Source: a virus. From it: a stretch of 54,054 nt of DNA. The notes beneath the pieces were generated by a model, which saw only the letters and a list, made by a program, of their open reading frames with translations, did no database searches and was not told the DNA's origin. Of this stretch, positions 14,976 to 49,230 are shown piece after piece. The translations under genes and the position numbers were made by a program. The stretch covers positions 1 to 54,054 of IMG/VR virus record IMGVR_UViG_3300028091_000011; one strand, written 5' to 3'. How positions within the stretch are numbered: position 1 is the stretch's first letter; each line of letters starts with the position of its first letter.

Positions 14976-15392
14976 ATGCCAAAGAACACCCCATCCATCG
15001 TCCTGTCGCGTACAGACTCCGCCGTGCAAATCCTGTTTGGGGGCTTCGACACCTCCATCGACCCAGTTCTCGTTGAGCGACGAGCCGTTGGTGGATCGTC
15101 TTGGACGGTGGTTGCTACTCCATCGGACGGGGATGGCGAGGTCTTGGACGACTCCATCATCGACGGCGTGAACTACGAGTATCGCGCGACCGCAGGAGGG
15201 CAGAGCGCGATGGCGGCTACCGCCACCGAGCAGGAGCCGAAGCGGAAGCGCAAGGAGAAGCAGGCGGATGCGGTCGAACAGGCGATTGTTCCAGTCATGC
15301 AGCCCGTGATCTTTGACCCGTGGGGTCTGCTGGCTGACATCTCCGAGTACGACCCGCAGGCTGTGTTCATGGTTCCAAAGAATGACAAGTAG
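14976..15392 (+). CDS. hypothetical protein with fibronectin-III-like fold, 138 aa
   Basis: Residues about 30-75 read VLVERRAVGGSSWTVVA, then LDDSIIDGVNYEYRATA, the spacing of an FN3 domain (paired strands with W and Y-x-Y-R). A lysine-rich patch PKRKRKEKQ and a short C-terminal tail follow. Such domains decorate phage particles. It starts with AGGAG six bases before ATG 14976 and its end overlaps the portal start by 11 bases, placing it at the front of the head operon. Confidence 0.65.
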   Translation: MPKNTPSIVLSRTDSAVQILFGGFDTSIDPVLVERRAVGGSSWTVVATPSDGDGEVLDDSIIDGVNYEYRATAGGQSAMAATATEQEPKRKRKEKQADAVEQAIVPVMQPVIFDPWGLLADISEYDPQAVFMVPKNDK

Positions 15393-17784
15393 TCGATCCA
15401 TCCTCTACGGACCGGATGGCGAGAAACTAGACATTCACGCCTCCATGAACGGTACTGCCCACGAGCGCAAGGTCGCGGGTGGTCGCATCATGCGTGCGTA
15501 CCAGAACTTCGTTTCTAGCATCTATGGGATCAGAACTGACCCGATTCGTCGCGCCACCGACCCATTCAGCAATCACGCTTGGGTCTACGCCGCAGCGATG
15601 GTTCGCGCCATCAACATCTCTCAAGCACCGTTTCTGGTGTACCAAGAGACATCGGACACCATCAGGCAGCGTCAGGAGAAGTTGGTTGGCAAGGGACTGC
15701 CTCCCGAGCCGCCACGAGCCAAGAATGGTCGTCGCGCCATCCACCGCCACTTGTCCAAGGCGGGCAACGCGCAACGGTTCACGGGCGCGAAGTTCAAGGG
15801 TGCAGAGCCAATCCTAGCGCATCCCCTGATGGACACGATGCTGCGTGCGAATCCCCACATGACAGGGGCGCAACTGTGGCAGGCGACCGAACTGTTCATG
15901 GCTCTGCGCGGAGAGTGCTTCTGGATTCTCGCCAAGGATGGTGCGGGACGGCTGCAATCTCGTGGTGAGTTTCCAGAGGAGATTTACCCGATCAGCCCCG
16001 ATCTGATGGAGGCGGAGGTCGAGGGTGGTCGCTTGGTCGCGTGGAGGTACAAGCAGGGCGGCGTGCGGTCGGACAAGATTCCTGCGCCCGTGATCGGAGA
16101 CCAGACTGGCGACATCATGCTGTTGCCGTGGGAGGTCATTCACTACCGCTACATCAACCCAGACGACTCGCTGCGAGGCTACTCGCCGCTGATTCCTGTG
16201 GCTTCGTCAATCGCCAGCGACATGACGGCGAAGACGCACAACATGAGCGTGCTGAAGAACGGAGCCAACCCGGGCGGAATCCTCATCGACAAGAACGCCG
16301 TCGAGCCGTGGTCAGCCGACGAGGAGAAGGAGTTCCTTGAGCGGTGGCAGCAGCGTCATGGCGGTGCAGGCAACCGTGGCGAACTCGCCATCCTGACCGG
16401 CGGTCTTGAGTACATCCCGACTGGGATGTCCCCCCGCGACATGGAGTACCTCGACTCCATGCGCTACAACCGCGAGGAAGTCTTCGCGACGATGCGCGTT
16501 CCCAAGACGGTTGTCGGCATCACGGACACCGTGAACTACGCGACCCAACTTGGTCAGGATGCGAACCTGTGGGACAAGTGCTTGCTGCCCGAGGTGCGCT
16601 ACTTTGAGGATGTCATCGACGGGACGCTCCTGTTCAGGGAGCCTGACTCCGTGTTTGCCGCGTTCGACCTGTCTGGCGTGGAGGCTCTGCGGTCGAGCCT
16701 CGCGGACAAGATCAACATGGTCAACACGCTGACGGCGGCGAACATCCACATGAGTCCGAAGGAGGCGTTCACCCTCGTTGGTCTGGAGGTTCCAGAGTAC
16801 GAGGGCAACGACAAGGCGTTCGTCGGGCCGGGTATGACCGTCAGCCAAGCCCTTCAGGGAGGCGGACAGCCATCCGAAGCCCCGCCCCCGCCCGCGCCCG
16901 CGCCCGCGCCCGCGACTGCACCAGCGCAGGATGCGACTCCTATTCAAGACATTCCAGATGCTCCCGCTGCTCCCGCCCCGACCATCGCATCCCTCAAGCG
17001 GCTTCGTGGATCGGACTACTGGAATCTCGCCAACAGGCGACTGTATTCGCGGATGGAGCCACGGCTTTCCCGCGCGTGGCGAGGCTTCGTCCGCCAAGTC
17101 AGGGACTCCTTCATGGAGTCTTTCGACGGCAAGGCTCGTGATGTGGAGAAGCGTCTCAAGGCTGTCGAGATCGACGGCTTGACCGCCCCAGACGCGGTTT
17201 CAGCGATCCTCCCAGCGCGTGATGTCCTTGGAAGGATGATTGAGACGCAGTTCAGGCAACCGCTGATGGCGAACCTGATGGATGTGTTCAACTTCACCAC
17301 GGACATCGACTTCCGTGGTGTCGCTAACTTCGCGATTGACGATCCCCGACTGATGTCGTGGTTCGACAAGGTTGACGACCGCCTTGCAGACACCGCCGCC
17401 GTCACGCTCCAGCAGAACATCCGCAATGCGGTTCGCGTTGGGATGGAGCAGGGCGAGTCGCTGATGCAAATCAGGCAGCGCGTGAGTCAGGTCTTCAGGG
17501 TCTCCGAGAGCGATGCCAAGGCTCTGACCGTGGCGCGGACGGAGAGCGGGGCGTTCCTGAACAACTCGCGCCAGATCATGCACCAAGCGCAGGGCTTCAC
17601 GGTCTACGAGTGGTCTACGGCGCAGGATGAACTCGTGCGCGACAGTCACGCGATGTTTGGGCGGATGCCTCCGCGCAAGTTTGGGCAGCAGTATGCACCG
17701 GGTCTTCGGTTCCCGCACGACCCAATGTGCATGGACGCAAGCGAAGTCGTCAACTGCCGCTGTATGCTTATCCCAGTTGAATAA
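15382..17784 (+). CDS. portal protein fused to a MuF-like domain
   Basis: Residues 1-~500 form an HK97-type portal: DPFSNHAWVYAAAMVRAI near the N-terminus, HPLMDTMLRANPHMTGAQLW, then LLPWEVIHYRYINPDDSLRG, KNGANPGGILIDK and VPKTVVGITDTVNYATQLGQ. A Pro/Ala linker encoded by CCCGCG repeats follows (about residues 495-515). The last ~270 residues form a Mu gpF-like domain: ARTESGAFLNNSRQIM, YEWSTAQDELVRDSH and the CMDASEVVNCRCML end. MuF is normally a separate gene, so this is a fusion. The portal forms the DNA entry ring; MuF aids assembly. The start (ATG 15382) has a weak ribosome site; ATG 15445 is an alternative. Confidence 0.9.
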   Translation: MTSSRSILYGPDGEKLDIHASMNGTAHERKVAGGRIMRAYQNFVSSIYGIRTDPIRRATDPFSNHAWVYAAAMVRAINISQAPFLVYQETSDTIRQRQEKLVGKGLPPEPPRAKNGRRAIHRHLSKAGNAQRFTGAKFKGAEPILAHPLMDTMLRANPHMTGAQLWQATELFMALRGECFWILAKDGAGRLQSRGEFPEEIYPISPDLMEAEVEGGRLVAWRYKQGGVRSDKIPAPVIGDQTGDIMLLPWEVIHYRYINPDDSLRGYSPLIPVASSIASDMTAKTHNMSVLKNGANPGGILIDKNAVEPWSADEEKEFLERWQQRHGGAGNRGELAILTGGLEYIPTGMSPRDMEYLDSMRYNREEVFATMRVPKTVVGITDTVNYATQLGQDANLWDKCLLPEVRYFEDVIDGTLLFREPDSVFAAFDLSGVEALRSSLADKINMVNTLTAANIHMSPKEAFTLVGLEVPEYEGNDKAFVGPGMTVSQALQGGGQPSEAPPPPAPAPAPATAPAQDATPIQDIPDAPAAPAPTIASLKRLRGSDYWNLANRRLYSRMEPRLSRAWRGFVRQVRDSFMESFDGKARDVEKRLKAVEIDGLTAPDAVSAILPARDVLGRMIETQFRQPLMANLMDVFNFTTDIDFRGVANFAIDDPRLMSWFDKVDDRLADTAAVTLQQNIRNAVRVGMEQGESLMQIRQRVSQVFRVSESDAKALTVARTESGAFLNNSRQIMHQAQGFTVYEWSTAQDELVRDSHAMFGRMPPRKFGQQYAPGLRFPHDPMCMDASEVVNCRCMLIPVE

Positions 17785-17795
17785 GGATGGCAGGG

Positions 17796-20700
17796 ATGCT
17801 CGACCAAATCACAGAACTCAAGTCCGCAGAAGTTATCGACACACCAGAAGGTGTCGAGCGGTTCCTTGCCGAACTCAAGAACGCGGTAAGCGAAAACGGA
17901 GACACCTCCGTAATGCAGACCGCTGACGGTCGTCTTTGCGTCACGAAGCAGAACCCCGCTACCGCGATGTCTGATCCGATGAGTGCGCCCTCGCGTGAGC
18001 GCATTCAGCAGATGGTCGCGGAGCGGGGAATGCCTTGGGACGAGAAGTACGCCGAGCGCGTCATTCCGTGGTGGGCTTCGGATGAGCGCGTTGACCGTCA
18101 GGGCGACATCGTTCTCCAGAACTGGAAGTTCGATGACTACCAGAACAACCCCTTGATGCTGTACGCGCATCGGTGGGACGATCCGCCGATTGGCACGGTT
18201 CTGAACTGGGAGGTCATGCCGCGAACGAGCCGCGCCTACAACGGTCGAAGCCTTCGCCTGATGCCCCTGTTCGCGACCAAGGATCAGTACGAGTGGGCTG
18301 ACACGATCTTCCGACTCGCCAAGGCGCGGTTCCTGCGGACTGGCTCCGTTGGGTTCTATTCGGACAACATCATTCAGGTTCGCGACCCCAACGAGCGGAT
18401 GCGTATGGGGCTTGGCAACATGGGCGTGATCTACGACAGAAACAACCTGATTGAGTGGACGGTGGCTCCCGTGCCTGCAAATCAGGGTGCGCTCCAGAGC
18501 CTTTCGCTCGTGGCACGCAAGGGTCTGCTGAAGGGCGACGACCTCCCTGTCGTCACGGACATCTTCAAGTCGTCCGTGAAGCGCGGGGTTGGAGACGCGG
18601 AGAAGATTCGCGACATTGAGAAGGCGGTCGGAAACTACTGGAACCGCCTCTTCCCAGCGACCAAAACGGTGTCAACCGTTGACACGAAGGCACTCCCGCA
18701 GTCGTACCGAGAGGCTGACGGCTCCCAGCGGTGCGAGAACTGCGCCTCCTACGAGCCTGACTCGACCGATGAGAAGATGGGCGTGTGCAGGCAGTACAGC
18801 GCAACTTGCCGAGCCAACATGACTTGCAACTCGTGGAAGGCGAAGATGCCTGTTGAGATTACGAAGGAAGGCGTTGCTGTTGCTGTTCCAGCACCCGCTG
18901 TCGCTCCAGTTGTATCTATGCCTGTTGCTGACTCTGGAAGTGGCATTACTGGTACTACTTCTGGAGGTCGCACAACTGGCGGAGCGTCAAGTCCAGTTGA
19001 CAATCAGCGTCCCGAGGCTGTTCCGCAGCGATGGGACGATGCGATGGACTTCATCAAGTCGCGCTACGAGGATCATCAGGCGGCTGTCGGAAACGATCCG
19101 CGCAAGCAAACCACGGAAGGCAAGTTGCAACAGGTGTTCGCGCGTGGCGTGAATGCTTGGGACGATGCCAACGAGGAGCAGCGCGGAGGTCTGACTGGCG
19201 AGGACTGGGGCTACGCGCGGGTGGAGTCGTTCCTGAACGCGCTGCAAAGCCTGCGCTTTGAGGGCGAACCTCACGATCAGGACTTGCTGCCTGCCGAGCA
19301 TCCCAAGTCCGAGCGCGAGAAGGTGAACAAGGCGGTTGTTGGTTACATCAACCGTGGCATGAACCGATTCATCAAGGGCGACTTCGTTTCGTGGCGGACG
19401 AAGGGCGGCATGGCTGTCGGTCAGATTGAGCAGATCGACATGAAGGGCATGGTTGCCACCGACAGCGAGGAGATGGAGGCGATGCCTGAAGACCCTGTGG
19501 CGACGATCAACCCGATTGTCGAGCAGGAAGGCAAGAAGATGGGCTGTGGCAAGCCGCGCCTGATGCCGTTCTCGCGCATCAAGATGGCTCCCAATCAGTT
19601 CCCCGAGCCGTCCAACTGGCGTTGCATGGATTCGCAGCGCAAGCGGATCGGTGACATGGTGATGTCGCACAACAAGGAGGTTGGCAATGATCCCATTCGT
19701 CTCGCATCCGCTGGCACGGCTGTTCATGTCTTTGAAAGAGGCATGGGGTCGTATCTGGAAGATCGCCGTGGCATCTCCGATGCAGGCTCCGCCGAGCAGT
19801 ACGCCGAAGCGCGTCTCGCGTCCTACCTCGACGCGCTCCGCAGGGGCGGCTTCCAAGGAGACTCGCACGACGAAGACCTCCTCCCACAAGACATTGCGGG
19901 ATCGCGCAGGGCGCAAGCCATCAAGGTGATGGTCGCGCGTGCGGCGGCATACGAAGGCATCGACTTCGTGCCGCCCGAGGGCGCACGCACCGAGGCGCAG
20001 CGCGGTCTTGACTGGAGGCGCGAGTACGGGCGTGGCGGCACGGAGATCGGTGTCGCCCGCGCACGCGACATTGCCAATGGCAAGAACCTGTCTCCCGAGA
20101 CTGTTCGCCGCATGAACTCGTACTTCGCACGCCACGAGGTGGACAAGAAGGGCGAGGGATTCAACCCAGACGAGAGCGGCTATCCGTCAGCGGGTCGAAT
20201 CGCGTGGGCGTTGTGGGGTGGTGATGCGGCGATGGGGTGGGCTGCAAAGGTGATGCGCCAGATGGAGGCGCGTCAGACCAAGATGTTTGAGCCGATTGGC
20301 GTTGTCGGCGGGCTTCGCGGTCGCATGAACGAGGCTTCAGACCGTTATCAGGAGATTTACCGTTGGGTCAAGACCGCCGATCCCGAGATGGTCAAGAAGG
20401 CTGTCGATGGCATCGGAGTGCGGACGGATGTCGATTACTCGACGCTCTGGCAGGACGAGCCGAAGGCGAAGTTCGTGTCCAGCGTGCTGCTGGCTGCGGA
20501 GATCGGAGGCGATCCTCGCGATCCCAACGAGACGCTCAAGTTCGTTCGGGGCTGCGTGTCCAAGGCGATTCGCCACCGAGCGGTCGAGCAGATCACGAAG
20601 GCTGCTGCAAAGAGAACTTCGGAGTTGGACTCGCTTGCGTCCGCGCTCAAGGAGTTCGATGAATCGAAGATCGACCGTGATGAGAACGGTCGGTTCAGCG

Positions 20701-21500
20701 GCGGCGGAGGCGGCGCATCAGATTCATCGTCCGATTCCAAGCAAGGCGCAGGCGAAGCGGCGAAGTTAGCGTCGATGGTCGAGGAGGCAAAGCAAGGGGT
20801 CTGGGCTTCTGGAAAGGATGATCGCGAGGCAAGCGAGTTGATCGCTGACGATCAGGAAACGATGACGGGTTTCATAGACAGGATCGACACGGAACTTGAC
20901 GATGAGAGGGAGGCTCTTGAAGCCCGAATCTCCGACTACGGAGGAGACGACGAGGCTGGTCTTCGGGAATCTTTGAAGGACGAGTTCGATTCGATTGCCG
21001 ATCAGCGTTCTTTCGTTGACGCAATCAGAAACAGAAACGATCAGATTGGAAGCGCGATCAGGCAGTACGACGAGGAAACACGCTTCGCCATTGGTGAGGC
21101 TCGTAACACCTTGAAGTCGGCAAGGTTTGCAAAGACGGCTGAAGAGTTCAGGGAGCGTGTCGCTGGCGCGGCAGGAAAACTCGTCTCTTCGCTTGATGCA
21201 GCAGACAAGAATGGCGGAGCCGCGCTGGATAGCCTTGTTCGACAGGCTCAATACGAGGCGGATCGCGACAAGAGGACGGGCGCAGGAGGCGACAAGATGC
21301 CCAAGGAAAGGCGCAGCGCGGCGGAAGCGTCTCGTTCTAGTGGAATCTCTGCTGGAAGGATTGCTCGGGTGAGGGTGGAGGTTCTTCGTCAGACATTGCT
21401 GCGCGGTCTTCGGTCTCCGCTTTACAGCGAGAGTCGGCATAGGGACGCAAGCGATGTCATTGCAAGAACCAGAAACCAGCGCGGCATTGGTGAAGACTGA
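17796..21500 (+). CDS. giant prohead-protease polyprotein, ~1234 aa
   Basis: The N-terminal ~250 residues resemble the HK97-type prohead protease: DIVLQNWKFDDYQNNPLML, YAHRWDDPPIG with the catalytic-type His (about 125), and RTGSVGFYS with the Ser (about 184), then EWTVAPVPANQGA. After it come a six-Cys segment (RCENC...GVC...TC...TC, about 313-344), a domain ending HDQDLLP and its repeat ending HDEDLLP, a Tudor-like FVSWRTKGGMAVGQI (about 530), a conserved block RMNSYFARHEVDK...IAWALWGGDAAMGWA (about 770-815), a linker RDENGRFSGGGGG (about 965), and a long coiled C-terminus like a scaffold. Usual proteases are 200-300 aa. ATG 17796 is preferred over 17787 for AAGGA spacing. Confidence 0.85.
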   Translation: MLDQITELKSAEVIDTPEGVERFLAELKNAVSENGDTSVMQTADGRLCVTKQNPATAMSDPMSAPSRERIQQMVAERGMPWDEKYAERVIPWWASDERVDRQGDIVLQNWKFDDYQNNPLMLYAHRWDDPPIGTVLNWEVMPRTSRAYNGRSLRLMPLFATKDQYEWADTIFRLAKARFLRTGSVGFYSDNIIQVRDPNERMRMGLGNMGVIYDRNNLIEWTVAPVPANQGALQSLSLVARKGLLKGDDLPVVTDIFKSSVKRGVGDAEKIRDIEKAVGNYWNRLFPATKTVSTVDTKALPQSYREADGSQRCENCASYEPDSTDEKMGVCRQYSATCRANMTCNSWKAKMPVEITKEGVAVAVPAPAVAPVVSMPVADSGSGITGTTSGGRTTGGASSPVDNQRPEAVPQRWDDAMDFIKSRYEDHQAAVGNDPRKQTTEGKLQQVFARGVNAWDDANEEQRGGLTGEDWGYARVESFLNALQSLRFEGEPHDQDLLPAEHPKSEREKVNKAVVGYINRGMNRFIKGDFVSWRTKGGMAVGQIEQIDMKGMVATDSEEMEAMPEDPVATINPIVEQEGKKMGCGKPRLMPFSRIKMAPNQFPEPSNWRCMDSQRKRIGDMVMSHNKEVGNDPIRLASAGTAVHVFERGMGSYLEDRRGISDAGSAEQYAEARLASYLDALRRGGFQGDSHDEDLLPQDIAGSRRAQAIKVMVARAAAYEGIDFVPPEGARTEAQRGLDWRREYGRGGTEIGVARARDIANGKNLSPETVRRMNSYFARHEVDKKGEGFNPDESGYPSAGRIAWALWGGDAAMGWAAKVMRQMEARQTKMFEPIGVVGGLRGRMNEASDRYQEIYRWVKTADPEMVKKAVDGIGVRTDVDYSTLWQDEPKAKFVSSVLLAAEIGGDPRDPNETLKFVRGCVSKAIRHRAVEQITKAAAKRTSELDSLASALKEFDESKIDRDENGRFSGGGGGASDSSSDSKQGAGEAAKLASMVEEAKQGVWASGKDDREASELIADDQETMTGFIDRIDTELDDEREALEARISDYGGDDEAGLRESLKDEFDSIADQRSFVDAIRNRNDQIGSAIRQYDEETRFAIGEARNTLKSARFAKTAEEFRERVAGAAGKLVSSLDAADKNGGAALDSLVRQAQYEADRDKRTGAGGDKMPKERRSAAEASRSSGISAGRIARVRVEVLRQTLLRGLRSPLYSESRHRDASDVIARTRNQRGIGED
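18669..18685. repeat. GTCAA-N3-TTGAC palindrome, site 3
   Basis: GTGTCAACCGTTGACAC, perfect 7-bp arms around CCG, inside the protease polyprotein gene (codes V-S-T-V-D-T). Its flanks match site 1 (GTG...CAC). It uses the serine codon TCA, which looks uncommon beside the TCG/TCC/AGC codons nearby. Confidence 0.7.
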
Positions 21501-26409: not shown

Positions 26410-27049
26410 AGCGGAACTGACGGTCAATGCGGATCAGGTTCGCATCCAGATCGACAGGCTGCTGAAGCGCATATCGGTCGAGGCTGTTCGTGCGGCTGTT
26501 GGTGCTGCATTCCAGCGAGGGGCTACGAAGGTCGGCGGCTTCATCGCGAAGAAGTTCCTGTCTGGTCAGGTTCTTCGGAGGAGGACTGGCAACCTCGCAC
26601 GCTCGGTCGAGGGAATCTTTGAGGTGTCTGATGGTCTGCCTCGTATTCGCGTGGGGGTCTTCAAGTCCCCAGCCAGAAACTATGCACGCATCCACGAGTT
26701 TGGAGGGACGATCACGCCCAAGAAGGCGAAGTCTCTTGCCGTACCCGTGGGTGCTGGGGCGGTTACTCCCGCTGGAGTGCCGAAGTACGCCAGTCCCCGC
26801 CAGTACCCGGGAGAGTTGCAATACATCCCCATCAACCGTGGCAATGTTGCAGCCATCCTCGTTGACCCCAAGGAGAAGCGCAAGGCTGAAGGAGAGCGCA
26901 TGAAGGCGACCTACCTCCTGCTGCGCCGCGTGCGTGTCAAGGCGCGTCCGTTCCTCCGACCCGGGGTAATGGCGTATCTGCCCGAACTCACGGAAGAGGT
27001 GTCCCGTGCCGTCAGAAAGGTTGTGAATACAGATGTCAGCGGTAACTAG
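26402..27049 (+). CDS. HK97 gp10-like tail completion protein
   Basis: Carries the pattern of gp10/minor tail protein Z-type neck proteins: VRAAVGAAFQRGATKVGGFIAKKF, RRRTGNLARSVEG, ARIHEFGGTITPKKAKSLAVPV (about residues 94-115) and VKARPFLRPGVMA. The I-H-E-F-G-G-T-I...K-x-L-A-V-P motif is the family hallmark. It joins head and tail during assembly. It overlaps both neighbours by a few bases. Confidence 0.88.
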   Translation: MAKAELTVNADQVRIQIDRLLKRISVEAVRAAVGAAFQRGATKVGGFIAKKFLSGQVLRRRTGNLARSVEGIFEVSDGLPRIRVGVFKSPARNYARIHEFGGTITPKKAKSLAVPVGAGAVTPAGVPKYASPRQYPGELQYIPINRGNVAAILVDPKEKRKAEGERMKATYLLLRRVRVKARPFLRPGVMAYLPELTEEVSRAVRKVVNTDVSGN

Positions 27050-27485
27050 CCAGCGCACCCGCGTCCTCGCCCAGATCATCGACCTGTGCAAGCAGGCTGG
27101 CGGTGGTCGCTACTTTGTGAGACGCGGCGCGGTGAACTGGGCGGAGTTCGACTTCAACCGATACTCGGCTGGCATCTCAATCCTCACCCCAGAGTTCACG
27201 CTTCTGGGCGTTCAACTGAACAGTATCACAGTCACGCTGGAACTTGTGCAACGCATTCCAGACGGAGAGCGTCTGTATCTTGAAACTGATGGGCTAAATG
27301 ACGAGGAAATCGAAGGACTTGTCGAGGATGCCCGTATCATTCTTCTTGGCTTGAAGGCGGCGAAGGACGACAGCGGAGATGCGACTGTTCTGCGAATCGT
27401 GGACAATCGCATTGAAGGTCAGGAAATGTCCAATCTCGACTTCAGCATTCAGGGCGTTATGGTCACCTTCACCGTAGAATACTGA
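27033..27485 (+). CDS. tail terminator / neck protein
   Basis: 150 residues with RTRVLAQIIDLCKQAGGGRYFV, LLGVQLNSITVTLELVQRIPDG, GLVEDARIILLGLKAAKDD and a beta C-terminus FSIQGVMVTFTVEY. Size, alpha/beta order and its location between the gp10-like and tail tube genes match gpU-type tail terminators. No strict motif is visible, so the call is mainly positional. Confidence 0.65.
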   Translation: MSAVTSQRTRVLAQIIDLCKQAGGGRYFVRRGAVNWAEFDFNRYSAGISILTPEFTLLGVQLNSITVTLELVQRIPDGERLYLETDGLNDEEIEGLVEDARIILLGLKAAKDDSGDATVLRIVDNRIEGQEMSNLDFSIQGVMVTFTVEY

Positions 27486-27509: not shown

Positions 27510-28343
27510 ATGGCAGGCATCGTTGGAACTCAAGACCTGTGGGTCGTCGGATCGCGGTTTTTCTTCAAGCCCGAAAGCACGATCTCTGATCGCATCATCG
27601 ACATTGGCACGATCAACACGGTGAATCCCGCGATTGAGCCGACCAAGGTCGATCTTCGCGACTCTGGCTCGGGCTTCTCCAAGATCATCGACTCGACCCT
27701 CACGGATGTCTCGGAGTCGTTTGAGGTCACCACGAAGAACTTCAGCCGCGACAACCTGTCGTACCTCTTCGTGTCCGCGACCCCGAAGGAACTCACCGAA
27801 GAAGCGGACACGGCTGTCCAGATGCTCCTGTCGAATGTGGCTGCAACGGCTTACCCCGTGAACACGCTCGTCAAGGTCTACAACAACACGGGAACGGGAA
27901 ACACGGGTCAGCCCGTCTACAACATCAACGCCAACCCGACGAACGCCGTGTCTGGCTTCGCCTCTGGCGCGATCTCCTTCGTCGTGCATGACGCTGCGCG
28001 TGGCATCCTGCGGGTCGCTACAAACAGCCTGTCGGGAACGGGCAGCATCACGATCACGCTTGCTACGACCGATCCCGAACCTGTGGCGAACAACCGCCGC
28101 GTGCTGACCCCGCAGATGGGTTCGCTCTCGCGCCTGACTGGTCGCGGCTACATCTACTACTCGCGCAACAACTTTGAGTACCAGACCGTTCGCGAGTTCA
28201 AGTGCCAGATCACCCCGTCGAACGCGAACTTCCAAGTCGAGGACTACTCGGACTTCACGCTGACGGCGAAGGCTCTGTATGAGCCGACCAACACCACCGC
28301 GCCGTTCGGTCGTCTCGTCGCATTCGCTGGCTCCATCGTCTGA
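27510..28343 (+). CDS. tail tube-like paralogue A1, 277 aa
   Basis: First of four tandem related genes. It begins MAGIVGTQDLWVVGSRFFF, then IIDIGTINTVNPAIEPTKVDLRD, FEVTTKNFSRDN, and late in the protein LSRLTGRGYIYYSRNNFEYQ, KCQITPSNANFQVEDYSDFTLT. Its closest relative here is the 29328 gene (A2): both have IGTINTV-P-EP-K-DLR and PSNANFQ-EDYS. The location between neck and tail chaperone genes is that of the major tail (tube) protein. The middle ~100 residues are variable, perhaps an exposed loop domain. RBS GGAG precedes ATG 27510. Confidence 0.82.
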   Translation: MAGIVGTQDLWVVGSRFFFKPESTISDRIIDIGTINTVNPAIEPTKVDLRDSGSGFSKIIDSTLTDVSESFEVTTKNFSRDNLSYLFVSATPKELTEEADTAVQMLLSNVAATAYPVNTLVKVYNNTGTGNTGQPVYNINANPTNAVSGFASGAISFVVHDAARGILRVATNSLSGTGSITITLATTDPEPVANNRRVLTPQMGSLSRLTGRGYIYYSRNNFEYQTVREFKCQITPSNANFQVEDYSDFTLTAKALYEPTNTTAPFGRLVAFAGSIV

Positions 28344-28361
28344 TAGAAAGAGGACACCACA

Positions 28362-29309
28362 ATGGCAGGACTCGTTGGCAATCAAGACCTCTGGATCGTT
28401 GGCTCCCGCTTCTACTTTGAGCAGGGAACTCGCGGCTCTGGCAAGATGATCGACCTCGGAACCGTGGATGTCATCTCGCCGCAGTTGACGACCAACATCG
28501 CTGAACTGAAGGACGGCGACAAGGGCATCCTGCGCCTCCTCGACCAGTCAATCACCCAGATTGATGAGGTCTACAACATCACCATCAAGAACTTCAACCT
28601 GACCAACCTGAACACGCTGTTCCTCGGCGGCGGTTGGACGGGAAGCAGCACGGCTGTCACGGGCAGCAACACCGCGTTCGACACGCTGAAGTTGAGCCTT
28701 GAGGACATCAACAACATCGGCGGCACGATCAACACGGGACAGTCGATTACTGGCGCGGGTGGTCTCTACCTGTTCCAGTTGACTGCAAGTGGTGAGCCTG
28801 TCCGAAACTTCGTTGGTACTGGCGGAACGCTGACCATCGGCGGCATCACGCAAGTCGAGAACACCAACTGGAAGTGGTACGACAAGAGCCGTGGCATCAT
28901 CCAGATTCTCACGCTTGCCGACTCGGGTGGCGGTGACGGCGTGACCGAATACAGCCCCGACATCACCTTCTCGGGCAACCGCGCTACTGGGTTCTCCAGC
29001 GGCAGCACCATCGACCTGATCTACACCCCCAGCAGCGCAGCCTACGGGTTCAGCGCGGGTCGCATCATGTACCCGCAGACCGCCACCCTGTCGTCGCTGT
29101 CGGGAACGGGTCATGTCTACTGGACGCGAAACAACGGCGAGTACATGACCGCCCGTTCGTTCCCATGCCAGATTCAGCCCGCTGGTGCAGCCCTCTCCGC
29201 AGACGATTACTCGTCGTGGACTCTGGCTGTCACCGTTCTCGCGAACAGCACCGTGGCTGGCGAAGAGGCTGGTCGCATGGTGTACGCGACTGGTACTGGC
29301 GAAATCTGA
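28362..29309 (+). CDS. tail tube-like paralogue B1, 315 aa
   Basis: Starts MAGLVGNQDLWIVGSRFYFE, then MIDLGTVDVISPQLTTNIAELKD, NITIKNFNLTNLNTLF, and near the end ATLSSLSGTGHVYWTRNNGEY, CQIQPAGAALSADDYSSWTL. It pairs with the 30156 gene (B2) by the shared MIDLGTVD-ISPQ...TNIAELKD and QIQPAG...DDYSSWTL blocks, and differs from the A type. A variable beta-rich insertion lies between about residues 95 and 215. It follows A1 by 18 bases with GAGG before the ATG. Confidence 0.82.
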   Translation: MAGLVGNQDLWIVGSRFYFEQGTRGSGKMIDLGTVDVISPQLTTNIAELKDGDKGILRLLDQSITQIDEVYNITIKNFNLTNLNTLFLGGGWTGSSTAVTGSNTAFDTLKLSLEDINNIGGTINTGQSITGAGGLYLFQLTASGEPVRNFVGTGGTLTIGGITQVENTNWKWYDKSRGIIQILTLADSGGGDGVTEYSPDITFSGNRATGFSSGSTIDLIYTPSSAAYGFSAGRIMYPQTATLSSLSGTGHVYWTRNNGEYMTARSFPCQIQPAGAALSADDYSSWTLAVTVLANSTVAGEEAGRMVYATGTGEI

Positions 29310-29327
29310 CCCTGACAGGAGGATGGC

Positions 29328-30143
29328 ATGGCAGGCATCGTCGGTTCCCAAGACCTCTGGGTCGTTGGATCAAGGGCTTACTTTCAGCGCGAGGGCGCGG
29401 CGAGTCTCGTGGAGATCGGAACGATCAACACGGTCAGCCCCGCCGTCGAGCCAGTCAAGATCGACCTCCGCGAGTACGAGACGGGTCTCGGCAAGTTGTT
29501 CGACTCGACGCTGACGGAGTTCACGGAGACCTACGAGGTCACCACCAAGAACTTCTTCCGCGACAACATCGCCAACCTGTTCCTGTCGTCTGCACCTGTG
29601 ACGCGATCCAATCCGTCAGAGAGCGTAAACGCAAATCAGGCGATCTTCAGTTTCACCTTCGACAGCAGCCGTCACGCGGCTGGTTCGTTGTTCTTGGCGG
29701 TAGACAACGGCGGAACATCACCGACCAATCAGGTTTGCTACAACATCACGAACATCGCCGCAAGCGGTGCGCTGTCTGCTCAAGTCGAGGTCGCTGACGC
29801 GACTCGCGGTCTCATTCGCCTATTGGGTGTTAGCGGTCTTACGGAGGCGCAGACATACTCCATCACGGTCAACCTTGATGCCCCAATCGGAAACAACCGT
29901 CAGGTCATTCGACCGCAGACGGCTACGCTTTCGCGGGTCACGGGCGAGATGCTGGTGTACTTTGAGCGCAACAACGGCGAGTACCAGTCCTGCCGTAACT
30001 TCAAGTGCATCATCCAGCCGTCGAACGCGAACTTCCAGATTGAGGACTACTCGGAGTTCACCTTCACCGCGAAGGCTCTCTACGAGCCGTCCAAGGCGGC
30101 GAAGTTCGGCAAGTTCATCACCTACCGTGGCAGCGTGATCTAA
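29328..30143 (+). CDS. tail tube-like paralogue A2, 271 aa
   Basis: Begins MAGIVGSQDLWVVGSRAYFQ, then VEIGTINTVSPAVEPVKIDLRE, YEVTTKNFFRDNIANLF and later ATLSRVTGEMLVYFERNNGEY, KCIIQPSNANFQIEDYSEFTFTAKALYEP. The N- and C-terminal thirds are close to A1, while the central insertion (about residues 85-190) is different. AGGAGG lies before ATG 29328. As with the other three copies, it may build part of the tube or carry an exposed domain. Confidence 0.82.
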   Translation: MAGIVGSQDLWVVGSRAYFQREGAASLVEIGTINTVSPAVEPVKIDLREYETGLGKLFDSTLTEFTETYEVTTKNFFRDNIANLFLSSAPVTRSNPSESVNANQAIFSFTFDSSRHAAGSLFLAVDNGGTSPTNQVCYNITNIAASGALSAQVEVADATRGLIRLLGVSGLTEAQTYSITVNLDAPIGNNRQVIRPQTATLSRVTGEMLVYFERNNGEYQSCRNFKCIIQPSNANFQIEDYSEFTFTAKALYEPSKAAKFGKFITYRGSVI

Positions 30144-30155
30144 AGGGAGCAAGTC

Positions 30156-31247
30156 ATGGCAGGACTCGTTGGCTCACAGGACTACTGGATCGTTGGCTCT
30201 CGGTTCTACTTTGAGCCGAATCTCTCTGGCACGACCACGCGCAGCGGCGAGATGATCGACCTTGGCACGGTTGACACCATCAGCCCGCAGATCGCGACCA
30301 ACATCGCGGAACTCAAGGACGCGGAGAGCGGTGTCATTCGCCTTGTGGATCAGGGACTCGTGAGCATTGACGAGACCTACTCCATCACGGTCAAGAACTT
30401 CAACTTCCGCAACCTCCAGATTCTCTTCGCTGGCAAGCCGCAGGCGGAGACGCAGGCGGCGAACATCACTCCTGCATCCATCACGCTGTCGAGCGAGGAA
30501 CTTTCGCGAACTCCGTCAGGCAACTCTGGTTCGATCATCAAGCCGACTGGCGGCTACCTCCTCGTCCAGTTGCGGGATAGCAACGGCAATCCTCTCCGCA
30601 ACTTCACCACGAGCAGCACCCTGACTGCAACAGCCAACATCGGTATTGGTGGTGCTTCTGCTGGGCTGACCAAGGACACTCATTGGACTTGGTGGGATGC
30701 GCCGAAGGGCATCATTCGCATCATCAACCTTCCTGCTGGTAGCGGTGGATATGCGGGCATGACGGTCACGGGCGGAGTCATCACCGCCTATCCGACCGCT
30801 GGGTTCACGATCACCTTCTCGGCGGCGACTGGTCTTGGCTACTCGGGCAACCGCGTGATCTACCCGCAGTCTGCAACGCTGTCCGACCTGACTGGCAACG
30901 CGCACATCTACTGGACGCGCAACAACGGGCAGGATGTCTCCGCCCGCACCTTCGCGTGCCAGATTCAGCCTGCTGGTAGTTCGCTGACCACCGACGACTA
31001 TTCGTCGTGGACGCTGACCGTGACTGCCCTCGCCACGGGATCGTCCACGGAGATCGCTGGTCGCTACACCAACATCAAGTGGAACAACACCACCACGGGC
31101 GACAATCTTGGTCTGCTGCCTAACGGCAACCCCGCGTACAACGAGAACTATGACGGCGCGGGTGGCGGTACGACAGGAACCAACTGGGACAAGAACCCGA
31201 ACGACTTTGATGTCGGCGGAACGCTTGGTGGCGGCAAGGCTGTCTAA
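30156..31247 (+). CDS. tail tube-like paralogue B2 with Gly/Asn-rich tail, 363 aa
   Basis: Starts MAGLVGSQDYWIVGSRFYFE, then EMIDLGTVDTISPQIATNIAELKD, SITVKNFNFRNLQILF and ATLSDLTGNAHIYWTRNNGQ, QIQPAGSSLTTDDYSSWTLT. It is the B-type partner of 28362. It alone has a C-terminal extension of about 45 residues rich in Gly, Asn and Thr (GNPAYNENYDGAGGGTTGTN and GGTLGGGKAV), perhaps a surface or interface tail. It ends the tail-tube block; an inverted repeat, an extended -10 and a terminator follow at 31259-31331. Confidence 0.82.
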   Translation: MAGLVGSQDYWIVGSRFYFEPNLSGTTTRSGEMIDLGTVDTISPQIATNIAELKDAESGVIRLVDQGLVSIDETYSITVKNFNFRNLQILFAGKPQAETQAANITPASITLSSEELSRTPSGNSGSIIKPTGGYLLVQLRDSNGNPLRNFTTSSTLTATANIGIGGASAGLTKDTHWTWWDAPKGIIRIINLPAGSGGYAGMTVTGGVITAYPTAGFTITFSAATGLGYSGNRVIYPQSATLSDLTGNAHIYWTRNNGQDVSARTFACQIQPAGSSLTTDDYSSWTLTVTALATGSSTEIAGRYTNIKWNNTTTGDNLGLLPNGNPAYNENYDGAGGGTTGTNWDKNPNDFDVGGTLGGGKAV

Positions 31248-31289: not shown

Positions 31290-31292
31290 CAG

Positions 31293-31331
31293 ACCCGTGG
31301 TGGCGCACCCGCTCCCACGGGTTCTTCTTTT
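31293..31331 (+). terminator. hairpin with T-rich tail before the tail chaperone gene
   Basis: ACCCGTGG (31293-31300) pairs with CCACGGGT (31315-31322), followed by TCTTCTTTT. It lies a few bases after the promoter -10, so it could end tail-tube transcription and also attenuate new transcripts. Confidence 0.7.
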
Positions 31332-31340
31332 GGAGAGAAA

Positions 31341-31820
31341 ATGCCTCAAGCGCGAGATGAACTTGCCGAACTGTTCCCGGGCAAGACGATTGAGATCAAG
31401 GGCAACGGCAGGACGATCAGGGTCACCGTCTACCCGATGGCGATCAAGCACTTCCGCACCTTCAAGGATTCCGTCACCAAGGCGATGGACAAGATCGGGA
31501 AGGCTCCCGCTGGAGGAGACTGGTCGAGCGTCATCATGCCCATGATCGTCCAGATTGCAGCCGATGATCTTCTGGACATCGTGAATGAGTGCGTCGAGGG
31601 CATCGACCTCAAGCACGACCGATGCCCCAACTGGGTCTACCCCATCGTCGTCAAGGAGTGGGTCATCGAATCATTCGGGTCGGAGGACAAAATCCGCCCT
31701 TGGGTGAGCCTTCTGGAAGAACTGGCAGAGAGGGTGGGCGGTCAGAAGGTCAACATTTGGCAGACGCTTACGCAACGCTCATCCTCTGCGGCTGGAGCAA
31801 GCCAGACATCGACAGACTGA
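31341..31820 (+). CDS. tail assembly chaperone, gpG-like, 159 aa
   Basis: Lies directly before the tape measure gene, where siphoviruses encode tail assembly chaperones. It reads ELFPGKTIEIKGNGRTIRVTVYPM, then HFRTFKDSVTKAMDKIG, IAADDLLDIVNECVEGIDL and PWVSLLEELAERVGGQKVNI, a small beta start followed by a helical bundle, as in gpG-type proteins. A second frame, -1 relative to this, overlaps its end and continues to the tape measure start. GGAGAG lies before ATG 31341. Confidence 0.82.
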   Translation: MPQARDELAELFPGKTIEIKGNGRTIRVTVYPMAIKHFRTFKDSVTKAMDKIGKAPAGGDWSSVIMPMIVQIAADDLLDIVNECVEGIDLKHDRCPNWVYPIVVKEWVIESFGSEDKIRPWVSLLEELAERVGGQKVNIWQTLTQRSSSAAGASQTSTD

Positions 31821-31981
31821 CGCTCAAGCAGTTCAATCTGTTCTCCGAACGCGCAGTTCTCGCAGTAAGACGCTTCCAAGCCTCGCAAGGAGAGATAATC
31901 AGGGTCGGAACGGCATCCCTGCTATCCAAGGAAGGGCAGCAGGCTTACAAGCGGCTGAATCAGGAGATACAGCGTGGCTGA
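31757..31981 (+). CDS. second tail chaperone segment (gpT-like), -1 frame or TTG start
   Basis: In the -1 frame relative to 31341 a continuous reading gives ADAYATLILCGWSKPDIDRL, TLKQFNLFSERAVLAVRRFQ and KEGQQAYKRLNQEIQRG. This looks like the T part of gpG/gpGT pairs. I found no standard X-XXY-YYZ slip site in the shared region; GGGCGGT near 31738 is only a partial fit. Instead AGAAGG (31744-31749) stands seven bases before TTG 31757, so independent translation is possible. TTG starts also occur at 43620 and 46628. The stop overlaps the tape measure GTG start. Confidence 0.68.
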   Translation: MADAYATLILCGWSKPDIDRLTLKQFNLFSERAVLAVRRFQASQGEIIRVGTASLLSKEGQQAYKRLNQEIQRG

Positions 31982-46971: not shown

Positions 46972-49230
46972 ATGGCAAACACCATTCGTATCAAGCGGCG
47001 TGGTTCTGGCATTGCTGGCGCACCAGCGTCTCTCGCAAGCGCAGAGTTGGCGTTCAACGAGATCGACAACACGCTCTACTACGGCAAGGGCGACAGTAGC
47101 GGAACCGCGACGAGCATCGCTGCCATCGGCGGTGACGGCGCGTTCGTCTCGCTGTCTGGCACGCAGACGATCAGCGGCAACAAGACCTTCTCTGGAACGG
47201 TATCGCTTGGCTCTTCGGCAACTGCGACTACGCCTGCAAGCAACAGCAACGACACCACCCTCGCGACGACTGCCTTCGTCACGACCAAGACCACGGGTTT
47301 CGGAAGCGGATCGGTGACCAGCGTTGGTCTGTCCTTGCCCGCCATGTTCTCGGTCACGGGTTCTCCCGTCACGACCAGCGGCACGCTCACGGCAAGCCTT
47401 GCTTCGCAGACCGCCAACTATGTGTTCATCGCTCCGAATGGAACGGCTGGCGCACCGACCTTCCGCGCACTCGTTGCAGCCGATCTTCCGTCCCTGACGG
47501 GAACCTACCTCGGTCTGTCTGCGGGCGGAACCGTCTCTGGAAACACGACCTTCAGCGGCACGGTCGCGCTTGGCGCATCGGCTACGGCGACCACCCCATC
47601 GACCATCGACAACAGCACGAAGGTCGCAACCACCGCGTATGTCCAGAATCAGGGCTTCCTCACTACAGCGGTGTCGAGCGTTGGGCTTTCGCTCCCCAAC
47701 ATCTTCACGGTGTCTGGCTCCCCAGTCACCCTGTCGGGAACGCTGACGGCTTCGCTGGCATCGCAGACGACCAACACCGTCTTCGCCGCGCCGAACGGCT
47801 CGACGGGCGCACCCACCTTCCGTTCGCTTGCTGCGGCTGACATCCCGACCCTGACTGCTGCGAAGATCAGCGACTTCGACACGCAAGTCCGCACCTCGCG
47901 TCTGGATCAGATGGCTGCGCCGACTGCAAGCGTGGCGTTCAACAGCCAGAAGATCACGGGTCTTGCCGATCCGACGAACGCGCAGGACGCGGCGACGAAG
48001 TTGTATGTCGATAACTCCCGTCTGGGAATCGACTTCAAGGACAGCGTTCGCGTTGCTACCACGGCGAACATCACGACCATCGCTGGCGGCGCACCGTCAA
48101 CCGTTGACGGAGTGAGCCTCGTGGCGAACGACCGAATCCTCGTCAAGAACCAGACGACCGCCTCGCAGAACGGCATCTACAAGGTCGATACGGTTGGAAC
48201 GGGAGCGAACGGCAGTTGGTCGCGAACGACCGATGCTGACGGCTCTCCCGCTGGCGAGTTGACCTCTGGTGCGTTCGTGTATGTCGAGGAAGGCACAGCC
48301 AACGCGCAGGATCAGTATGTCATCACGACTACTGGCACGATCACCGTTGGCACGACTGGCATCACATGGGGTCTGTTCTCTGGCGCGGGCAAGATCACCG
48401 CTGGTGCTGGTCTGTCGAAGACGAAGGACACCCTCGCGTTATCCCTTGCTGGAAGCAGCGGTCTTGAGACGACGAGCGGTCTTGCCCTGACCAACACGGG
48501 CGTTTCCGCTGGCTCTTATCAGAGCGTCACCGTCGATGCGAAGGGTCGAGTGACGGCTGGAACGAATCCGACCACCCTGTCTGGATACAACATCACGGAC
48601 GCGCAGTCCTCTGACCCGACCCTCACCGCTCTTGCAGGGGTCACGACCGCCGCCGACCAGATCATCTACGCGACTGGCTCCGACACCTTCACCACGACCG
48701 CGCTGACCTTGACGGCTCGTAGCCTCCTTGACGACACCTCGACCTCCGCGATGCGGACGACCCTTGGTGTGGCAATCGGCACGGATGTTCAGGCTTACGA
48801 TGCGACCCTCGCCGCCCTCGCTGGCGTGACGACCGCCGCAGACAAGTTGATCTACGCCAGCGGCGTGGACACCTTCCTGACGACCGACTTCACCTCGACC
48901 GCCCGCACCCTGCTGGACGACACCAGCACGAGCGCAATGCGGACGACCCTCGGCGTTGCCATCGGAACCGATGTGCAGGCGTACAACGCCGCCCTTGCCT
49001 CCATCGCTGGTCTGACCACGCTGGCGGACAGGATGATCTACACGACCGCCTCTAACACCTACGCGGTCACCACCCTGACCTCGTTCGGTCGAAGCCTTGT
49101 TGACGATGCGGACGCATCGACGGCACGCACGACCCTCGGTCTTGGAACGATGGCTACGCAGTCTGCAAGCAGCGTGAGCATCACGGGCGGCAGCATCGAC
49201 GGCATCACCATCGACGGCGGAACCTTCTGA
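46972..49230 (+). CDS. tail fibre protein, 752 aa
   Basis: N-terminal module SLASAELAFNEIDNTLYYGKGD followed by stacked repeats. Two ~115-residue units share FSGTV-LG-SATATTP, SVGLSLP-F-V-GSPV and NGT-GAPTFR-L-AAD-P-LT. A middle block KIRGLADPTNAQDAATKLYVD-type and RILVKNQTT-SQNGIYKV is common in phage fibres. Three 62-residue repeats then occur at 48628-49160. The end SITGGSIDGITIDGGTF is shared with many fibres and with the short protein at 46628 (SIDGGNF). It binds receptor or carries a tip adhesin encoded downstream. Confidence 0.88.
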   Translation: MANTIRIKRRGSGIAGAPASLASAELAFNEIDNTLYYGKGDSSGTATSIAAIGGDGAFVSLSGTQTISGNKTFSGTVSLGSSATATTPASNSNDTTLATTAFVTTKTTGFGSGSVTSVGLSLPAMFSVTGSPVTTSGTLTASLASQTANYVFIAPNGTAGAPTFRALVAADLPSLTGTYLGLSAGGTVSGNTTFSGTVALGASATATTPSTIDNSTKVATTAYVQNQGFLTTAVSSVGLSLPNIFTVSGSPVTLSGTLTASLASQTTNTVFAAPNGSTGAPTFRSLAAADIPTLTAAKISDFDTQVRTSRLDQMAAPTASVAFNSQKITGLADPTNAQDAATKLYVDNSRLGIDFKDSVRVATTANITTIAGGAPSTVDGVSLVANDRILVKNQTTASQNGIYKVDTVGTGANGSWSRTTDADGSPAGELTSGAFVYVEEGTANAQDQYVITTTGTITVGTTGITWGLFSGAGKITAGAGLSKTKDTLALSLAGSSGLETTSGLALTNTGVSAGSYQSVTVDAKGRVTAGTNPTTLSGYNITDAQSSDPTLTALAGVTTAADQIIYATGSDTFTTTALTLTARSLLDDTSTSAMRTTLGVAIGTDVQAYDATLAALAGVTTAADKLIYASGVDTFLTTDFTSTARTLLDDTSTSAMRTTLGVAIGTDVQAYNAALASIAGLTTLADRMIYTTASNTYAVTTLTSFGRSLVDDADASTARTTLGLGTMATQSASSVSITGGSIDGITIDGGTF
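48094..48110. repeat. GTCAA-N3-TTGAC palindrome, site 5
   Basis: CCGTCAACCGTTGACGG, perfect 7-bp arms around CCG, inside the fibre gene (codes P-S-T-V-D-G). Flanks match site 2 (CC...GG). It again uses the serine codon TCA. Confidence 0.7.
48628..49160 (+). repeat. three 186-bp fibre repeats
   Basis: Units start near 48628, 48814 and 49000 with ALAGVTT-AD--IY. The segment LLDDTSTSAMRTTLGVAIGT is identical in protein between units 1 and 2, while the DNA differs at many third positions; unit 3 is more diverged. Confidence 0.8.

Follow-up and report, generated by a model that had tools for sequence, protein, structure and literature searches.

Tail tubes are usually treated as stacks of a single protein. 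The solved structures of the YSD1/Chi major tail protein (PDB 6xgr, 8vhx; NF052337) are one-protein tubes, and the JBD30 protein is laid out as a beta-sandwich, a hinge loop (residues 42–62), a helix (77–83), a decoration domain (88–175) and a further beta-sandwich (PMC11445458). SPP1 builds one tube from two forms, gp17.1 and gp17.1*, which occur at 3:1, have the same core with a different extra part and arise by translational frameshift (PMC7666168). In T5 pb6 and the P74-26 tube protein, a duplicated tube domain is fused in one chain, giving two non-identical units and a pseudo-hexameric ring (PMC5717097, PMC10034513). In actinophages, two or three major-tail paralogues are annotated (PMC12859696, PMC11080557, PMC10652937). 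Here we analyze a stretch of DNA of 54,054 bases from an uncultured virus of bacteria (IMG/VR virus record IMGVR_UViG_3300028091_000011; the whole stretch is called the window below), in which four adjacent genes, A1, B1, A2 and B2, encode paralogues that profiles, Foldseek and genome slot support as tail-tube (major tail) proteins of the YSD1/Chi/JBD30 type.

We found that each of the four proteins matches phrog_807, 'major tail protein with Ig-like domain' (Ig, immunoglobulin), and that phrog_807 and NCBIfam NF052337, which is named after the YSD1 tube structure 6XGR, match 14/14 aligned members of the family. A1 scores 28.9 bits against NF052337, where the curated cut-off is 60, so this relation is remote; a Pfam search of the four proteins gave zero matches and a PDB sequence search gave nothing relevant. 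When an AlphaFold model of A1 (predicted local distance difference test, pLDDT, 48; TM 0.35) was compared with the PDB by Foldseek, the top four matches were YSD1/Chi tubes (E 1e-5 to 3e-4, probability 1.00), and when the same low-confidence model was compared with the BFVD viral models, the top two were major tail proteins. The predicted order of strands, loops and helix in this model fits that of JBD30, with the hinge at residues 45–64, the helix at 80–87 and the insert at approximately 93–195. In the window and in its relatives, the tube genes sit between the tail terminator and the chaperone, with the tape measure after them. Family (by profile and Foldseek) and genome slot are thus those of YSD1/Chi; the difference is that those structures show a one-protein tube, whereas the window has four paralogues.

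All four genes start with ATG, lie on the plus strand in one common reading frame, are intact and are separated by gaps of 12–18 bp, and there is a Shine-Dalgarno-like (SD-like) sequence upstream of each. They are present at positions 27510–31247 exactly where a first-pass annotation of the window had placed four tail-tube paralogues, and they are full length; the shared motifs quoted there are found in the proteins, although RNN-EY is imperfect, as B2 reads RNNGQD. We rejected a read-through fusion of A and B into a pb6-like protein, as there are in-frame stops between all four genes and a double stop (TGA TAG) between A1 and B1; T5 and P74-26 have fused copies and trimeric rings, whereas the window has separate genes with stop codons between them. 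Frameshift isoforms of the SPP1 type were also rejected because every form here is its own complete gene with its own start, in contrast to SPP1, where both forms come from one gene. Misassembly is unlikely, given that the copies are only ~50% identical in protein and that two and three copies are found on independent contigs.

The likeness among the four proteins is far above chance (pairwise blastp E 1e-38 to 1e-84, full length). By pairwise BLAST, all over the full length, identity is 48% between A1 and A2, 47% between B1 and B2 and 30–33% between A and B; by MAFFT, the values are 52%, 53% and 31–36%; the whole range of A-B identity is 30–37%. There are 34 ungapped columns in which A1 equals A2, B1 equals B2 and A differs from B, as compared to 2 and 3 columns for the other two pairings. 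In a maximum-likelihood tree, (A1,A2) has support of 100/98 and (B1,B2) of 100/100, and grouping A1 with B1 is rejected by the approximately unbiased test (p-AU 8e-9). The inserts alone give the same pairing, both by nearest insert and by length (100–103 residues in A, 136–140 in B). Tree distances inside the two pairs are similar (1.14 and 1.18), which is what a single duplication of both genes together predicts. The A/B assignment, the tree that the first-pass annotation had proposed as a check, and its duplicated two-gene unit are therefore borne out by the diagnostic columns and the branch support of 98–100; its tail-tube identity stands on the PHROG 807 and NF052337 matches, the YSD1/Chi Foldseek matches and the terminator-chaperone slot, and its differing central insertions on the low insert identity between paralogues. 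Taken together, these comparisons support that the array arose by duplication of an A-B unit.

To the two parts of each protein, shared core and central insert, different things have happened. Core and insert identities are 0.63 and 0.35 for A1-A2, 0.66 and 0.37 for B1-B2, 0.61 and 0.33 for the two paralogues of one relative (L009), and 0.83–0.85 and 0.33–0.40 among the three paralogues of another (L031). In contrast, in 28 pairs of single-copy orthologues, core (0.50) and insert (0.42) diverge nearly together and the lowest insert/core ratio is 0.60. The ratio is 0.39–0.56 in the A1-A2, B1-B2, L009 and L031 pairs, and 0/28 single-copy pairs are that low, though their cores are less alike. In the L031 trio, about half of the four-fold degenerate sites differ, in core and insert alike, which indicates that these cores are kept by purifying selection and not by youth; recent gene conversion as the source of their similarity was rejected because synonymous sites have diverged. 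In the A1-A2 and B1-B2 cores, four-fold sites differ at 0.50–0.57 and second codon positions at only 0.11–0.23, and together with the intact open reading frames (ORFs) this indicates long-term purifying selection on each copy. A simple reading, which these sequence data suggest, is that the tube proteins of one genome must fit one tube, and that divergence is tolerated, or promoted, in the exposed part. The first-pass suggestion of several exposed domains displayed on one kind of tube thereby gains indirect support, since cores are constrained and inserts diverge in each clear recent paralogue pair, unlike in single-copy orthologues.

To locate where A and B differ, we mapped the A/B diagnostic sites onto the core; they make up 11/35 columns in strand 2 and the hinge loop and 8/22 in residues 237–258, and there are 0 in 196–236. 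Overall, 19/57 core columns in 30–64 and 237–258 are diagnostic as compared to 6/114 elsewhere (Fisher p 3e-6, with the regions picked post hoc). A-B identity is 0.35 in strand 2, 0.25 in the hinge and 0.32 in the 237–247 loop, as compared to 0.58, 0.54 and 0.38 between single-copy orthologues of different phages. In JBD30, the hinge loop of one disc fits between loops of the next disc (PMC11445458), and from loop order and length the 237–247 loop here would be equivalent to JBD30 217–227. In the L031 trio, the same strand 2, hinge and loop segments are 0.90–0.96 identical; thus, the L031 copies look interchangeable, whereas the window's A and B, with their low identity there, do not. These data suggest that A and B are probably two stacking types, alternating or in different tail segments, and not free substitutes.

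A tblastn search with A1, B2 and L009 X against 50,697 phage records found no relatives, and back-translated peptide searches of IMG/VR and GTDB genomes returned near-identical fragments only, or nothing; the family was found by hand-made degenerate motif scans of IMG/VR. There are 14 further contigs with the family (L009, L021–L033; the near-identical fragment L006/L020 is not counted), of which L028 is a fragment, whereas L030 and L032 seem to belong to a single species. The relatives' tube genes are flanked by homologues of the terminator and chaperone found in the window, and we counted copies where both flanking genes are visible. Eight phages have a single copy (L022, L023, L024, L025, L026, L027, L029 and L033/L044), L009 and L032 (with its relative L030) have two, L031 has three and the window has four; L021 has at least two, and its contig ends there. 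The L031 trio is monophyletic in the tree (100/100), the L009 pair groups together (97/97) and A and B of the window form a group with 93/84 support, so that each set consists of its own closest relatives and three independent expansions of the tube gene are likely, that of the window being the least certain. An A/B split older than the L009 split stays compatible with the data (A with X,Y p-AU 0.35; B with X,Y p-AU 0.065), and the count of three duplications therefore hinges on the branch with 93/84 support. The two-copy states of L021 and L032 may have arisen separately or together.

Gordonia cluster DJ, Microbacterium Damascus and Arthrobacter Stayer likewise have multiple homologous major tail genes in the stretch from terminator to tape measure. 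Damascus gp17, gp19 and gp20 share a core (42–51% over ~215 aa) while the remainder differs, as the window copies share a core; in contrast to the window, another gene splits the first two copies in the actinophage sets, and the parts that vary there are C-terminal domains instead of an internal insert. A profile of the window proteins found no detectable sequence relation to Damascus gp15–21. By tblastn, the Damascus-type family occurs at 480 places in 243 records, mostly two per genome and at most three among the matches listed. The first-pass statement that siphoviruses usually have one major tail protein, sometimes a second, thus needs correcting, as two such paralogues occur in hundreds of sequenced actinophages, and three in some (PMC12859696). 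Multiplicity itself is already known; new are the four copies, the A-B-A-B order and the series of one, two, three and four copies within one lineage. A literature search, with subscription papers largely outside it, gave no report of four tube genes, an A-B-A-B array or a copy-number series in one slot.

Individual genes of the Damascus type also drew our attention. Damascus gp19 (L012:4261-6090), one of three tube paralogues, has 609 aa with ~400 extra C-terminal residues, and the gene at the corresponding position in Stayer, gp18 (L051:12465-14504), is of similar length and bears the annotation minor tail protein. In Lactococcus phage P118, a Damascus major tail homologue (L049:9001-9918) is annotated 'cell adhesion domain-containing protein' and the gene adjoining the terminase is annotated as a tape measure; both names seem wrong.

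Codon bias decreases from the first tube gene to the last (A1 0.64, B1 0.59, A2 0.58, B2 0.56), as compared to 0.75 for the capsid gene and 0.30–0.55 for most other late genes, so that all four come closer to the capsid gene than most other late genes do. Together with the hairpin that follows the last tube gene (Table 1), these values fit, but do not prove, strong expression of the whole array and less of the downstream tape measure. The tape measure (from the window and L018, L022, L026, L027, L030 and L044–L048) has 977–1147 aa in the eight relatives with one copy, 1324 and no less than 1521 in phages with two, and 2063, roughly double the single-copy length, in the window. Copy number and tape-measure length are associated by a rank test (p 0.006, uncorrected for kinship, with three multi-copy points of which two are sisters). 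The Damascus-type family, which is unrelated, shows no such trend or the opposite one (1692–2202 aa with one copy, 1492–1829 with two and 1402–1516 with three). In the window's lineage, copy number may rise with tail length.

We consider a mixed tail tube, with a shared core, several decorations and two stacking types, the best explanation, at a probability of about two-thirds. A single ancestral tube gene would have been duplicated into A and B, and the A-B pair would later have been duplicated as a unit. Each protein would form rings through a beta-sandwich core that has a long hinge loop, and would bear an inserted, probably Ig-like, outward-facing domain; the four products would most likely polymerize together around one tape measure. 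Constancy of the core would let every protein fit into the same tube, and the differing exposed inserts would give a tail that shows up to four surface domains; the A/B differences at predicted ring-to-ring contacts (hinge loop, 237–247 loop) would probably make two stacking types. We infer the fold of the insert, its outward position, the co-assembly and the arrangement. Several observations weigh against a mixed tube. A-B pairs have ordinary insert/core ratios (0.65–0.81), and the cores of the paralogues are more alike than those of any single-copy pair, a caveat for that comparison. The A1 model, built from four sequences, has low confidence, and a joint A1-B1 AlphaFold model (stop codons as residues, 3 rows) has a pLDDT of 43 and no usable interface. 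Codon bias is an indirect sign of expression, and some non-structural genes are equally biased.

It is possible, though doubtful, that an obligate hetero-polymer makes up the tube; A and B would then be ring types unable to replace each other, with hinge loops and sockets that match at the contacts, and the doubled unit would give an ordered tube with four surface domains, a number that would have grown from one through two and three to four with tail length. Rather unlikely is a tube of one main protein with specialized minor copies that form the first or last rings at the tip or neck. The drop in codon bias along the array, the long C-terminal tail found only in B2, the A/B differences at the stacking loops and the 609-aa Damascus paralogue with its large extra domain would fit such a division; however, inserts differ inside each type too, and none of the copies shows a truncation or a fusion with a further tail domain. 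We give slightly less weight still to gene dosage, by which a long-tailed phage amplified its tube gene for enough subunit and the copies are equivalent. Dosage needs neither copies that are ~50% diverged, nor inserts that are far more so, nor A/B contact loops that differ, and the tape-measure trend on which it could draw in this lineage is the one missing or reversed in the Damascus-type family, although a terminator-like hairpin does close the array. A store of alternative tube proteins for recombination or selective expression, with one used at a time, would account for inserts that diverge fastest, but it is very improbable with four intact, tightly packed genes that have their own SD-like sites and strongly constrained cores, and an unsystematic inspection of the array showed neither a promoter switch nor a recombinase. 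Neutral duplicates heading to loss would agree with a copy number that varies among relatives and are hardly credible given long-term purifying selection on each copy and intact ORFs throughout.

The repeated multiplication of a tube gene from one to four copies in one slot, with a frozen core and a diversified insert, points to a general route to multi-component, multi-decorated tubes. With its natural gradation of copy number, the lineage lends itself to studying the function of exposed tube domains and the question of whether tubes can be hetero-polymers. It also yields a concrete prediction for actinophages with two or three copies, which are little explained so far.

Table 1. Features of the tube-gene array and its flanks in the window.
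Feature	Coordinates	Strand	Basis
Tail terminator, upstream landmark	27033..27485	+	Function assigned by position; 48% identity to same-place gene in L009; homologues adjoin tube genes in relatives
Tail-tube gene A1, 277 aa	27510..28343	+	phrog_807 E 8.7e-7; NF052337 tail_tube_6XGR E 7.2e-7, under curated cut-off; Foldseek YSD1 6xgr E 1.3e-5
A1 inserted domain, residues ~93-195, probably exposed decoration domain	27786..28094	+	Position matches JBD30 decoration domain 88-175; low identity between paralogues
Tail-tube gene B1, 315 aa	28362..29309	+	phrog_807 E 1.2e-7; NF052337
B1 inserted domain, ~140 residues, limits approximate	28638..29057	+	Alignment
Tail-tube gene A2, 271 aa	29328..30143	+	phrog_807 E 4e-6; 48-52% identity to A1
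A2 inserted domain, ~100 residues, limits approximate	29598..29897	+	Alignment
Tail-tube gene B2, 363 aa, Gly/Asn/Thr-rich C-terminal tail of ~55 residues	30156..31247	+	phrog_807 E 2.6e-11; 47-53% identity to B1
B2 inserted domain, ~136 residues, limits approximate	30441..30848	+	Alignment
Hairpin then T-rich run, probably ending the array as terminator or attenuator (gap between last tube gene and chaperone)	31292..31323	+	Folding free energy -23.6 kcal/mol, z -3.5 vs shuffles; terminator scan agrees
Tail assembly chaperone, downstream landmark	31341..31820	+	Weak phrog_1442 match E 0.013; same-place homologue in relatives
Tape measure protein, 2063 aa	31974..38165	+	phrog_991 E 3e-14; PhageMin_Tail E 4e-7, under its cut-off

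The array lies in a siphovirus-like late region with the order portal (MuF-like end), capsid protein, neck protein, tail terminator, four tube genes, chaperone, tape measure and then tip and fibre genes. The tail terminator gene has no match of its own in the family libraries. An ORF in a different frame (31589-31981) extends over the last part of the chaperone gene as far as the beginning of the tape measure gene, and by position it is a candidate for a frameshifted chaperone extension. The portal protein (15313-17784) is a single ORF with a MuF-like head-morphogenesis domain at its C-terminus. Between the portal and capsid genes there is an ORF of 1237 aa (17787-21500) whose sole strong family match, at residues 718–827, is phrog_2859, of unknown function. 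Further downstream, a protein of 752 aa (46972-49230) matches the head-decoration family phrog_2647 and many tail-fibre families, and may be a mosaic fibre or decoration protein.

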